From Longibacter salinarum (lineage in GTDB: Bacteria > Bacteroidota > Rhodothermia > Rhodothermales > Salinibacteraceae), in assembly GCF_002554795.1 (NCBI RefSeq), contig NZ_PDEQ01000005.1:62001-126000 (forward strand): a DNA stretch of 64,000 bases. The letters run 5' to 3'. The notes under the pieces are model-generated. The model worked only from the letters and a program-made list of their open reading frames with translations, was not told the DNA's origin and did no database searches. The position numbers and the translations under genes are program-made. Below, piece after piece: positions 18,401 through 22,208 of this stretch; positions within the stretch are counted from its first letter, which is position 1; every line of letters begins with the position of its first letter.

Positions 18401-19018
18401 ATGCTCGACTCCCCAATTACGCTGGGCCTGCTGATCATCAACGTGGCGATCAGCCTCTACGCCCTCGTCTCTGATCCCTCGCTCATCCGGGATCTCTCGT
18501 TCCGCCCTCGCCGCATCGAAGATCACGGTGAGTACTACCGATTCTTCACTGCCGGCTTCGTGCACGGCGGGATGGCGCACCTCGCGTTCAACATGATCAC
18601 GCTCTATTTCTTCGGGCCGTTGCTCGAAGGCGTACTTGGCGCGGGTGCGTTTCTGATTCTCTACTTCGGCTCCGACCTGTGTGCCAACGCGCTCACGTTT
18701 GCCATGCACCGTAACGATCCCAACTACGGGTCGATCGGCGCATCGGGCGCTATTTCCGGTGTTCTGTTTGCCTTCTGCCTTTTCGCTCCGTTTGCGAAGC
18801 TGTACGTCTTCTTCGCGATCCCGATGCCGGCCATTCTCTTCGCTATCCTCTATGTCGTCGTTTCCGTCTACGCGATCGGACAACGCGAACAGGGGGCGGT
18901 CGGCGGCATTGCGCACGAAGCTCACCTCGGTGGGGCGATCGGTGGCGTCCTAATCACGATTGCTCTCGTCCCGACAGCGGTCAACGAATTCATTCGCGCC
19001 ATCCAGCAGGCTCTATGA
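18401..19018 (+). CDS. Rhomboid family intramembrane serine protease
   Basis: 205 residues with six hydrophobic helices. GFVHGGMAHLAFNMITLYFFG is the conserved helix-2 segment with HxxxN. GSIGASGAISGVLFAF holds the catalytic Ser (GxSG), and AHEAHLGGAIGG holds the catalytic His. It cleaves membrane proteins inside the bilayer; the substrate is unknown. It begins 44 bp after purQ on the same strand and may be co-transcribed with it. Directly downstream lies the non-coding region with RNA candidates. Confidence 0.93.
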   Translation: MLDSPITLGLLIINVAISLYALVSDPSLIRDLSFRPRRIEDHGEYYRFFTAGFVHGGMAHLAFNMITLYFFGPLLEGVLGAGAFLILYFGSDLCANALTFAMHRNDPNYGSIGASGAISGVLFAFCLFAPFAKLYVFFAIPMPAILFAILYVVVSVYAIGQREQGAVGGIAHEAHLGGAIGGVLITIALVPTAVNEFIRAIQQAL

Positions 19019-19039
19019 TGGTACGATGAATGTCCGTTA

Positions 19040-19257
19040 TGTAGAACCGGGGTACCCGGCTGAAATTGTGCTAATTACGGTCTCGTAATGTGATCTTCGC
19101 CGTTCCTTTGCAGGAATCCCGTTATTGGGGTTGCACCGAAACCTCGTGTAGGGTATCGTACAGTGGCTTCATGCACCTTATCTCTCGCCTCGCGAGAACT
19201 CAGTCGCATCACACGTGGATATAGCAGAGAGCTCGGCTTGTGGAGGCCGAGCTTTTT
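19040..19257 (+). ncRNA. Candidate structured RNA or 3' UTR after the rhomboid gene
   Basis: A chain of perfect small hairpins lies here: CCGGG/CCCGG (19047-19059), ATTACG/CGTAAT (19074-19089), TTCCT/AGGAA (19103-19116) and TCTCGC/GCGAGA (19183-19197). An intrinsic terminator at 19230-19257 ends it. No protein frame is credible. It may be an independent small RNA or the 3' end of the rhomboid transcript; only a weak -10-like TATGAT (19014) is visible upstream. Confidence 0.4.
19230..19257 (+). terminator. Intrinsic terminator
   Basis: AGCTCGGC (19230-19237) pairs exactly with GCCGAGCT (19246-19253), followed by Ts. Confidence 0.88.
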
Positions 19258-19327
19258 GCTCTGAACACGGTCTGCGCGATGTCGCGCGCTCGAAAAGGGT
19301 CGTCCGTCCTGCTTGCTCGCCCCTACC

Positions 19328-19361
19328 GTTGTGAATAACTTGTTTATAATTTGTTCACAAC
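19328..19361. promoter_or_regulatory. Inverted repeat just upstream of the large RNA promoter
   Basis: GTTGTGAA (19328-19335) and TTCACAAC (19354-19361) are exact inverted repeats around an AT-rich 18-bp centre containing TATAAT. They end 5 bp before the -35 box. This placement suits an operator or an AT-rich upstream element. Confidence 0.5.
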
Positions 19362-19366
19362 TCGTC

Positions 19367-19395
19367 TTGACACGCACTTCATGAAGGCTTACAAT
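19367..19395 (+). promoter_or_regulatory. Consensus sigma-70-type promoter
   Basis: A perfect -35 TTGACA (19367-19372) is followed after exactly 17 bp by TACAAT (19390-19395). The predicted start is about 19401-19403, exactly where a UUCG hairpin begins. It is the best promoter match I noticed in the window, and no protein gene follows it. Confidence 0.8.
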
Positions 19396-19400
19396 ATGGC

Positions 19401-20280
19401 CAGTGCCTTCGGGTACTGTTCCTTGACGCGACTGAGTCTCTGGGCTGCATGAAGCCAGCCTGTGTAGCGCTCTCGGCGTGTGTGCCTTTGGGCCGCATTC
19501 CGAAAGGGCGAGAGGCAGATGCACCGGACCGTACATCCGTGTTCTTCGGAACGCGCTATGTGCGTCATCCAACGGGGCGTGTCCAAACCTATCGCATATC
19601 GCCGAGAGGCGGAGAGCGAAGGACAGAGCACGAACCGGACGATGTGTCGCTCGGCGTTGTCGGACGTGTTGAATGAGTGGAAGCTCGTCGACCGTGCGAG
19701 GACTCCGATACAACGCTCCGGGATGCATCGCTCCTGATCGACGCACCGTGTTCGCTACATGGTGCACTCCTCGATCATGCGCGCATCGCAGCGGTCTTCT
19801 TCCCTCTTCCCCACTCATACCCGTCAGGGATGACGTGAGGTTCAGACGGACAGAGGATCGACGCGCGAGACAGTGTAATCGGACTGATTGCTCGTTCGCG
19901 AGCGTCAGAGCGATGCCCTGTTTCGGTCATCGGGCGGATCATTTTCCACGGAATGGTTCGCTGCGAAGGATGCTTCCTCCACAGGACGAGCCACTCAATG
20001 AGCGAGAACGTGCGTTAGGCGTTGCCTGACGCGGCACTCCCTCGGTGAGCGGCACATGTAGGCCCGTGGTGCTCGGACCGTTGCTCTGCGACGGTAAACG
20101 GACGGCTCTTCGAGTCGGACGACGAGTACCGCTCCGGCATACCCGACGGTATGTCCTAGGAGACGGGCCTCCCACCACGACGATACTTCGGTATCTCTGG
20201 TTCGGGAGGCCAGCGTTGAGGAATTTACGAGCACTCTGCCAGCCACCGCGGCCTCTGCCAGCGGGGGCTTTCTTATTGTT
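19401..20280 (+). ncRNA. Candidate large structured non-coding RNA (~880 nt)
   Basis: A consensus promoter sits directly upstream and an intrinsic terminator closes the unit. Between them are many strong stems. Three are capped by UUCG: 19401-19418, 19538-19555 and 19890-19903, and a fourth UUCG caps the inner stem of the 20166-20211 element. Others are 19743-19765 (8 bp), 20012-20032 (9 bp, GTT loop), 20078-20094 (7 bp), 20136-20155 (8 bp) and 20166-20211 (8 bp outer stem). A long-range ATGAGTGG/CCACTCAT pair joins 19673-19680 and 19811-19818. Open frames here are Arg/Ser-rich and resemble no protein. I do not recognise RNase P, tmRNA, SRP, 6S, group I/II intron or rRNA signatures. The exact ends are inferred. 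Confidence 0.65.
20242..20280 (+). terminator. Intrinsic terminator of the large RNA candidate
   Basis: GCCACCGC (20242-20249) pairs with GCGGGGGC (20261-20268) with one mismatch, followed by TTTCTTATTGTT. The T-rich tail exists only on the plus strand, so it does not serve the converging HAD gene. Confidence 0.75.
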
Positions 20281-20296
20281 GCGACAGACGTGCGTG

Positions 20297-21013
20297 TTAG
20301 AGCCGCGACAGCAGATCCGACCAGTCCTGGAAGGCAAACGTCCGTCCGTTCATCTCCTGCCCGTTTACGCCACTTCGGGCGAACCAGGCGACGTGCCACC
20401 CAGCGCGGCTCCCTCCTTCCACATCCGAGCGCCAGGAGTCGCCGACGTAGAGGATGCGCTCCGGTGTCACTTCGGCCCGCTCGGCCGCCACCTCGAACAC
20501 GTGCGGGTGTGGCTTCATGTGGCCGGTCTCCTCGCTCACGAGCACAACGTCGGCCCGATCGCGGATCTCTGGAAACTTCTTCAGCTTCTGTGCCTGGACT
20601 TCGGCAAATCCATTCGTGAGTACACCCACGCGGTAGCGCTCGGCGATCTCCGCGTATGTATCACGGGCGCCATCGACGTACTTCCAGTGCTCCGCGTACC
20701 GCTGCAAGTACACTGAACCGATACGCGCCGCATCTGCGTGGGGCGCATCGATCGCATTCAGAAGCCGTGGAAAACGGTCGTGTTTCACGATCTCCTTCTC
20801 AATCTCCCCGCTCGAATACTTTTCCCAGAGCGGCCGGTTGATTTCGTGGTACGTCTGCTGCAGTTCGTCAACCGACAGGTGCCCGAACACGGCGAGGTAG
20901 CGGGACCGGACGTCGGCCAGCGCATGACGCTCGGCGTGACTGTGATCGAGAAGCGTGTCGTCGACATCGAAGAAGACGAAGTCGATGTCGTTGGATAGGG
21001 TCGAGGTACTCAC
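20297..21013 (-). CDS. HAD family hydrolase (YjjG-like nucleotidase type)
   Basis: 238 residues from a GTG at 21011-21013. An ATG at 21121 is in frame but would overlap the upstream gene by 65 bp and add a Ser-rich tail. HAD motif I is FFDVDDTLLDHS with Asp16/Asp18, motif II is VGVLTNGF, motif III Lys is in GHMKPHPHVFE, and motif IV is YVGDSWRSDVEGG. The cap is helical (subfamily IA). Relatives act on nucleoside monophosphates and phosphosugars. It follows the GNAT-like acyltransferase by 43 bp. Confidence 0.88.
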   Translation of the reverse strand: MSTSTLSNDIDFVFFDVDDTLLDHSHAERHALADVRSRYLAVFGHLSVDELQQTYHEINRPLWEKYSSGEIEKEIVKHDRFPRLLNAIDAPHADAARIGSVYLQRYAEHWKYVDGARDTYAEIAERYRVGVLTNGFAEVQAQKLKKFPEIRDRADVVLVSEETGHMKPHPHVFEVAAERAEVTPERILYVGDSWRSDVEGGSRAGWHVAWFARSGVNGQEMNGRTFAFQDWSDLLSRL

Positions 21014-21056
21014 GGGACGGAAATCAATCGATCTAGGTGAACGGGAACTGCGCGAA

Positions 21057-22208
21057 TCACGCGATGGATCGCTCGAACATGGCGTATTCTTTATCGACAA
21101 CGGCGCCGAGCGATTCGACATGGTTCTTGAGCCGGTCGTTGGAATCGAGCACCCAGCTCATTTCGCAGGCGTCGAAGCCGTTCGGCGGGCCGTTCTCGAT
21201 CGTGGCCAGGACCAGGAGCGCGTCCAGTCCTTTCCCCTGAAACTCTTGACGGACCCCCATCAGCGGCATTCGGCATTCGTAGATACCGTAATGCGCGTTG
21301 AGTAAAAGCTTGGGCAGACCGAGGGGGAAGAGCTTCCCATCGGGAATATGCTTCAGCGCCTGATTGATGTTCGGCAGCGTAATCGAGAAGGCCACCGGCT
21401 CGCCCTCGTGCTCCACGAAAAAGACCATCTCGGGCTCCACGATCTGCTTGAGTTGGTCGGCGAGCTGGTCGAACTCGGCATCCGTCATGGGCACGTGGCC
21501 CCAGTTGTCGGACCACGCTTCATTGTAAATGTCGACCACGCGACGAGCCTCGCGTTCGAACTCGTCCATGTTGAGCGTCCGTAGCGTCAGGCCTGGCGTG
21601 CGACGCTTGACTAGTTGTGCTCCGCGTTTCAGTCGATCAAACTCGACGTATTTCTTGTGGACGTAGTAAGCCCACATGGTCATGGCCCGCTCGAAGCCGT
21701 ACTTGAGGAGGAAGTCCTCATGATAGGGCGGATTGTATGGCATTAAAATGGACGGCTCGCGGTCGAAGCCGTCAACCAGAAGCCCGGCGGTATCATTGAG
21801 CGACGGGTTCGCCGGTCCGCGCATCCCCGTCATCCCTTGATCCTGCAACCACGCGGCCGCCGCTTCGAATAGCGCCTCTGCCACCGAGTACTCGTCGATG
21901 CACTCGAAAAAGCCGAAGAAGCCGTTATCGTCGTCATATTTCTGCAGGTGCATGCCGTTGATAATCGCGGCAATGCGACCGACGACGCGGCCATTACGAC
22001 GCGCGAGAAACAGCTGGGCGCGACCGTGTTCGAAAAAGGCATTTTTCGATGGGTCCAGCGAATGCTTTACCTCTCGCCGAAGCGGAGGCACCCAGTGAGG
22101 ATAGTCGTCTGGATAAAACGTGTAGGGGAAGTCGATGAACGCCTTTCGGTCTGAGCGACCGGTCACGGGGTCGACCTGCAGGGACGCGGGCGTTTCCGTA
22201 GACACCAT
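21057..22208 (-). CDS. GNAT-fold acyltransferase-like protein (YghO-like; possible bacterial ceramide synthase)
   Basis: 383 residues. The N-terminal part holds FIDFPYTFYPDDYPHWVPPLRREV and GRVVGRIAAIIN, features of the YghO-like family. The central GPANPSLNDTAGLLVDGFDREP and PYNPPYHEDFLLKYGF blocks are strongly family-like, and a second GNAT lobe contains EFQGKGLDALL. The gene upstream on the same strand encodes a serine palmitoyltransferase-like enzyme. In Caulobacter the ceramide synthase is a GNAT-fold protein encoded near spt. By analogy this protein may N-acylate a sphingoid base. That role is inferred. A terminator separates it from the spt-like gene. Confidence 0.7.
   Translation of the reverse strand: MVSTETPASLQVDPVTGRSDRKAFIDFPYTFYPDDYPHWVPPLRREVKHSLDPSKNAFFEHGRAQLFLARRNGRVVGRIAAIINGMHLQKYDDDNGFFGFFECIDEYSVAEALFEAAAAWLQDQGMTGMRGPANPSLNDTAGLLVDGFDREPSILMPYNPPYHEDFLLKYGFERAMTMWAYYVHKKYVEFDRLKRGAQLVKRRTPGLTLRTLNMDEFEREARRVVDIYNEAWSDNWGHVPMTDAEFDQLADQLKQIVEPEMVFFVEHEGEPVAFSITLPNINQALKHIPDGKLFPLGLPKLLLNAHYGIYECRMPLMGVRQEFQGKGLDALLVLATIENGPPNGFDACEMSWVLDSNDRLKNHVESLGAVVDKEYAMFERSIA

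Follow-up and report, generated by a model that had tools for sequence, protein, structure and literature searches.

A large structured RNA of Rhodothermales and a small RNA predicted to pair with it at three sites

The large ornate bacterial RNAs OLE, GOLLD, and ROOL are reported to assemble, from RNA alone, into homo-oligomers whose intermolecular contacts covary and include kissing loops (PMC12286853). The RNA described here, RNA A, resembles them in size (0.6-0.9 kb), in its elaborate covarying fold, in being non-coding and of little-known function, and in having conserved intermolecular RNA contacts. However, OLE, GOLLD, and ROOL are reported to be homo-oligomers, whereas the conserved partner of RNA A is a different small RNA, RNA B. 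In addition, GOLLD and ROOL belong to phages and prophages near tRNA islands, whereas RNA A is chromosomal, single-copy, and without Rfam similarity. In the eukaryotic U4/U6 snRNA pair, a small RNA binds the core of its partner by two helices, one on each side of a hairpin in the small RNA. RNA B shows a similar arrangement in its complementarity to the core of RNA A. This is an analogy of layout only, with no sequence relation and no splicing context, and the A/B pair has a third contact. RNA B also recalls ColE1 RNA I, which pairs with RNA II, and other antisense RNAs in that an RNA of ~100 nt matches the 5' region of a longer, structured RNA by complementarity, probably with loop-mediated contact. 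Unlike RNA I, RNA B is read from a promoter of its own in the direction of RNA A, is not encoded on the opposite strand of RNA A, and contains three separated pairing blocks, and the A/B locus is not a replication origin. To our knowledge, a large bacterial RNA paired with a dedicated second RNA is a layout that has not been described before.

RNA A and its homologues

The window, the whole 64-kb stretch of DNA analyzed here (G000:C5:62001-126000), comes from a genome of 4.4 Mb. In it, a rhomboid-protease gene (18401-19018, plus strand) and a HAD hydrolase gene (20297-21121, minus strand) are separated by ~1.3 kb in which no plausible gene is seen. The original prediction placed a single undescribed structured non-coding RNA at 19401-20280. 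That stretch does appear to hold one RNA gene, but a second one, RNA B (19164-19258, plus strand), lies outside it and had been missed. RNA A (19401-20275, plus strand; about 0.85-0.87 kb) is supported by its fold, homologues, closing helix, terminator, and covariation. The consensus promoter and the plus-strand intrinsic terminator seen earlier are both present. The promoter, TTGACA-N17-TACAAT (19367-19395, plus strand), matches 11 of 12 consensus positions and ends six bases upstream of the RNA start, and the terminator (20250-20274, plus strand) has homologous counterparts in relatives. A TTGAC-N16-19-TANNNT element was found upstream of RNA A in 46 of 55 genomes. With its promoter, 5' hairpin, closing helix P1, and intrinsic terminator, 19401-20275 is predicted to be one discrete RNA gene.

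Homologues of RNA A are present across the order, as a search of related genomes had been proposed to reveal. By blastn, the sister species within the genus has a full-length copy with 78% identity, and strong conservation of the 5' ~60 nt extends to some 40 further genomes. A covariance model of the 5' end detected RNA A in 56 of 114 genomes of Rhodothermales, an order with both salt- and heat-loving members, and in 11 of 15 families, with one copy in each genome. The same model applied to 394 genomes drawn from the phylum gave nothing outside the order besides two weak matches (G227 and G340), which were rejected because they have neither the core nor RNA B. When 85,000 species were scanned with a pattern, the matches were MAGs of Rhodothermales and Bacteroidota, Roseithermus sacchariphilus, and a small number of scattered records; those outside Bacteroidota probably reflect chance agreement with a short pattern. 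In the cultured R. sacchariphilus MEBiC09517 (CP030158), RNA A runs from ~193453 on the minus strand, and RNA B is at 193572-193669. No phage record or viral contig matched the RNA A pattern in a scan of viral sequences, and our literature search on non-coding RNA in Rhodothermales found none. In most families the gene order is purQ, rhomboid, RNA B, RNA A, HAD, GNAT-like, AONS, and parB, and these six protein genes are recurrent neighbors. In families f10 and f13, the RNA A locus adjoins pssA instead.

The stretch had been reported to lack a plausible protein gene, and this held among the homologues. Indels of 1, 2, or 4 nt that distinguish the window's species from its sister species disrupt all reading frames, and frames starting at the conserved AUG of the core span 2 to 204 codons, which argues against a protein product. 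No conserved reading frame was found across the RNA A homologues. These data also bear on a reading of A and B as one regulated locus, either toxin-antitoxin-like or a small-peptide mRNA under RNA B control. The conserved core AUG (GCAUGA) is covered by RNA B, antitoxin RNAs often cover start sites, and open frames can be long (median 132 codons versus 93 for shuffled RNA A). Nevertheless, with frames so variable and so readily broken between sister species, with no conserved protein, and with A and B being syntenic, single-copy, and not mobile, we consider this explanation improbable.

When both strands of the window were searched against Rfam 15 at E ≤ 10, only two chance-level matches were obtained, the best of which (Thr_leader, E 0.28) is on the wrong strand and far below the gathering threshold. 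Twenty homologous loci searched at E ≤ 1 also gave two sub-threshold chance matches and nothing near gathering, and the OLE, GOLLD, and ROOL models did not match RNA A. A tmRNA identity was rejected as well: RNA A has no match to RF00023, and a complete ssrA gene sits elsewhere in the genome (G000:C1:255141-255508, RF00023, E 5e-71). The setting of GOLLD and ROOL was not found either, since there is no phage or viral match and no tRNA within the window, and the neighbors are syntenic housekeeping genes. RNA A is thus not a member of OLE, GOLLD, or ROOL by Rfam, nor of GOLLD or ROOL by genomic setting. Its size and stem density do recall ornate RNAs; however, given these searches, the position of ssrA, and the setting, a highly diverged RNase P, tmRNA, 6S RNA, group I/II intron, or OLE/GOLLD/ROOL RNA is very improbable. 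Taken with the homologues, their covariation, and the reading frames, the Rfam result supports the original reading of an undescribed structured non-coding RNA, and RNA A, taken by itself, would define a new class among the large structured RNAs of bacteria, as a further member of a kind already known.

The plus strand of RNA A folded at -428 kcal/mol compared with -357 ± 7 kcal/mol for shuffled sequences (z -10.0), whereas the minus strand reached a z of only -5.7. This bore out the high density of stems noted in the window, and UUCG-capped stems were confirmed, for example at 19401-19418, 19540-19558, and 20183-20195. On the other hand, the 8-bp long-range pair proposed between 19673-19680 and 19811-19818 is not retained in the sister species G001, in which the two segments (GACGGGCG and CCACGTAC) are non-complementary. 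Two other long-range helices were supported. Directly after the 5' hairpin (CAGUGCC..GGCACUG), the P1 5' strand UUCCUUGACGC (19419-19429, plus strand) pairs with the 3' strand GCGUUGAGGAA (20213-20223, plus strand), and P1 is the predicted closing helix that joins the two ends of RNA A. Of 50 genomes scanned, about 40 had a strong matching 3' strand (GCGUYRAGGAA), mostly just upstream of the terminator. The conserved core (19428-19456, plus strand), defined by alignment and by complementarity to RNA B, comprises the H2 target GCGACUGAG, the linker GUCUCU, and the H1 target hairpin GGGCUGCAUGAAGCC. In P2, this linker pairs with AGAGAC near the RNA A 3' end; in the window, 19436-19441 pairs with GGAGAC (20159-20164, plus strand). 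The 3' strand was recognized as the complement of the core linker and covaries in G031, G060, and G072, with the compensatory variants AGAUCUCU/AGAGAUCU in G031 and AGGUCUCUG/CAGAGACCU in G060. The fold, the P1 scan, and the consensus structure gave a further hairpin, P3 (GGCCUCCC...UUCG...GGGAGGCC; 20166-20211, plus strand). An earlier candidate partner of the core linker, a GGGAGG close to the 3' end, was superseded by P3 plus P2.

The RNA A structure covaries among homologues. In the consensus fold of 12 aligned members of family f5, 62 of 128 predicted pairs showed double compensatory change. Within the window's genus, hairpin arms also change together from one species to the other, as in CGUGUUC-UUCG-GAACGCG versus UGCCAUUC-UUCG-GAGUGGCA. 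Family f5 also has an invariant CGUCCCGGCG hairpin motif in RNA A (alignment A3, columns 352-363). A long tandem array of UUCG-type hairpins (GAAGACACCGUCUGAAAAGCUUCGGCUCG...), positioned just 5' of P1, expands the RNA A 5' domain at loci L088 and L089 of f13 and at L068, L070, and L071 of f10.

The RNA B gene and its linkage to RNA A

In homologues, an inverted occurrence of the RNA A core motif was found ~210-350 nt upstream of RNA A, and reading it on the plus strand revealed RNA B, a putative small RNA of ~95 nt. Across genomes, it starts near ACCUCAUGC and continues with a variable hairpin, CUCAGUCGC, AUGGGCA, and then a strong terminator. The gene in the window (19164-19258, plus strand) was supported by alignment and a covariance-model match (E 2.6e-13), and it was the one convincing copy in that genome. 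All of its elements lie on the plus strand. The H1 strand GGCUUCAUGCA (19165-19175) lies at the extreme 5' end and is followed by the variable hairpin, the H2 strand CUCAGUCGC (19199-19207), the H3 strand CGUGGA (19214-19219; AUGGGCA in most families), and an intrinsic terminator, GCUCGGC...GCCGAGC with five U residues (19231-19257), identified by sequence and alignment. The promoter reads TTGC ... TATCGT (19131-19160). Across the order it takes the form TTGC-N~20-TATCTT, with spacing conserved in 52 genomes and the TATCTT lying 7-8 nt before the RNA B start, and we take it to be the -33/-7 type of Bacteroidota. We rejected the alternative that B is a minus-strand paralogue of the RNA A core: the conserved promoter, terminator, and start fit the plus strand, and the G.U changes fit duplexes.

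RNA B was found in all 56 genomes that carry RNA A. It was detected by the model in 52, by sequence comparison in G035, G038, and G046, and by reading the upstream region in G039. In four genomes without RNA A for which the rhomboid locus was read (G003, G008, G009, and G057), the rhomboid gene directly abuts HAD, and neither B nor A is present. Matches of the B model in genomes lacking RNA A proved to be ordinary gene-end terminators. In G039, RNA B with its terminator is separated from RNA A with its promoter by an ATPase-type gene plus one more open frame, and the B-A spacing in G076 (locus L160) is similar, with the motifs >2 kb apart in both. These intervening protein genes, seen in one sub-lineage, indicate that the two RNAs are separate transcription units that must meet in trans. 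The insert in G039 (locus L090), in which the ATPase gene is of AAA type and precedes the other open frame, resembles a defense-type gene pair.

Predicted contacts between RNA A and RNA B

In the first contact, H1, the first ~11 nt of RNA B are complementary to GGCNGCAUGARG of RNA A (19446-19456 in the window). In the second, H2, UCAGUCGC of RNA B is complementary to GCGACUGA of RNA A (19428-19436), and the two contacts flank the RNA B hairpin. Together, their targets cover the near-invariant 5' core of RNA A. One position of H1 is usually mismatched (U in RNA A opposite C in RNA B). Among 43 distinct sequences, 93.8% of H1/H2 cells were paired, compared with 29-49% in slid controls. The covariation score was 0.111 versus 0.083 ± 0.004, a value reached by 0 of 500 shuffles, under a control that ignores relatedness. 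When RNA B was swapped among genomes, pairing dropped: 0 of 5,000 permutations over all 52 genomes reached the observed value, and 25 of 5,000 did so outside family f5. At the positions under most constraint (H2 2-8 and H1 5-10) in the 52 genomes, the single departures comprised 21 G.U changes in the allowed direction, 3 compensatory changes, and 3 that break a pair, counted as genomes and not as independent events. Compensated pairs included GAUGGAG in A with CUCCGUC in B (G037), ACAUG with CAUGU (G027 and G060), UGAAG with CUUCA (G027), and, in G000 and G002, GCAUGAAGCC or GCAUGAAGUC with GGCUUCAUGC or GACUUCAUGC. Co-folding of the A:B core gave -24.3 ± 3.9 kcal/mol versus -7.9 ± 3.4 kcal/mol for shuffled RNA A. 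The complementarity is thus conserved with compensatory change, as expected of an antisense small RNA and its target.

The third contact, H3, lies ~500 nt beyond the 5' core. The conserved AUGGGCA of RNA B is exactly complementary to the loop at the tip of an RNA A hairpin (stem-GUGUGCCCAURC-stem). This hairpin was found in f2, f5, f6, f7, f8, f12, and f14, mostly 115-185 nt before the P1 3' strand, and its UGCCCAU loop is universal in families other than that of the window. In the window, the corresponding distal hairpin (19933-19962, plus strand) carries the loop UCCACG (19945-19950), complementary to the H3 strand CGUGGA. Perfect matches of at least 8 nt between loop and RNA B occurred in 20 of 51 genomes but in only 7 of 255 comparisons with shuffled B tails, and matches of at least 9 nt occurred in 10 genomes and in none with shuffled tails. 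Both halves also depart from the consensus jointly: UGUCCAU in A with AUGGACA in B (G002), UCCACG with CGUGGA (G000 and G001), and AUGCCCAU with AUGGGCAU (G111 and G032). Both halves are absent from the six f10/f13 genomes, these two families having lost them together. H3 was not identified in f9. A possible compensatory change in G072 was ambiguous and was dropped, as was a candidate third contact on the 5' hairpin of RNA A (AGUGCC), the UGCCCAU loop being better conserved.

These patterns also speak to whether the complementary motifs could be conserved protein-bound DNA inverted repeats, perhaps together with DnaA boxes, with RNA pairing incidental. The inverted core motifs are ~210-350 bp apart in most genomes, with DnaA-box-like clusters between them, as such an arrangement would have it. 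However, the direction of the changes is compatible with G.U pairing, H3 involves an RNA loop far away, the motifs are >2 kb apart in G039 and G076, and a promoter and terminator frame RNA B as a transcript. We therefore regard DNA sites as a highly improbable explanation.

Our best reading is that the A-B pair is a hetero-RNA complex made of a large scaffold and a docking small RNA. We assign a probability of roughly 60% to the view that A and B each form one half of a single, conserved RNA machine, with RNA B as a trans-acting structural and regulatory partner. RNA B would dock loop-first, its free 5' end on the GCAUGARG loop of RNA A (H1) and its tail on the distal loop (H3). H2 would then form at the P1/P2 junction (GCGACUGA of RNA A) and open the last ~3 bp of P1. 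In this way, RNA B would clamp the 5' core to the distal domain and set the active fold of RNA A, in a layout like that of U4 on U6 and not that of a simple antisense blocker. Since H2 overlaps P1 by about 3 nt, it might pair only transiently and serve a regulatory role instead of a structural one.

The main competing view is that RNA B is an ordinary antisense regulator, RNA I/RNA II- or CopA/CopT-like but acting in trans, which blocks or destabilizes an RNA A that functions alone. The sizes and the targeting of the 5' core resemble antisense control, the H1 target is loop-exposed, and H2 overlaps strands of both P1 and P2, so that RNA B binding would disturb the RNA A fold. A pure blocker would have no need of H3, whose target is the loop of a conserved hairpin ~500 nt away, however, and the finding that RNA A never occurs without RNA B (56 of 56) is more easily explained by an obligatory partner. 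Mainly on account of H3 and the absence of any B-less RNA A, we favor a structural and regulatory subunit and consider a pure antisense blocker unlikely, though the most serious of the alternatives. A more specific proposal is that a large ornate RNA needs a dedicated small-RNA subunit at three sites for an active, possibly catalytic, fold, with its synthesis tied to DnaA, which would make the pair a bacterial counterpart of U4/U6 in layout; this we hold only tentatively. As a large RNA with a dedicated partner, the A-B pair looks like no known kind that we found. The pairing is kept by covariation at three separated sites across eleven families. The predicted RNA-RNA assembly is directly testable, since the two genes are separate and single-copy, sister lineages show clean losses, and at least one host is in culture.

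Sequence boxes upstream of RNA A and RNA B

A DnaA-box-like cluster, TGTGAATAA ... TTGTTCACAA (19330-19360, plus strand), precedes the RNA A promoter. Within the 130 nt before this promoter, the exact DnaA box TTATNCACA was present in 19 of 48 regions (mean 0.42 versus a background of 0.0015 per 130 bp). This enrichment suggests DnaA-linked transcription of RNA A. Synthesis of RNA A might follow DnaA or the cell cycle, while RNA B would be made from a housekeeping-type promoter. These DnaA-box-like repeats at 19330-19360, spaced by ~11-12 bp, are present despite the long distance between the locus and the origin. A replication origin or RNA primer role, considered because of the DnaA-like boxes and the nearby parB, was ruled out by GC skew and dnaA positions. 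In G033, the skew switches at ~1.1 and ~3.5 Mb and dnaA is at 0.92 Mb, with RNA A at 0.19 Mb, and in three one-contig genomes dnaA lies 0.45-0.73 Mb from RNA A. These positions indicate that RNA A is not at a replication origin, the location expected for replication control of the RNA I/RNA II type.

Upstream of the RNA B promoter, conservation of a CGTTAT box identified CCGTTATTG (19119-19127, plus strand), with a second copy, TCCGTTATG, near 19032. At least two CGTTAT boxes were present in the 220 nt before RNA B in 46 of 52 genomes, against a background of 0.07 per 220 nt. The paired CCGTTATTG boxes are likely a regulator binding site, and the nearest box is usually 45-51 nt before RNA B.
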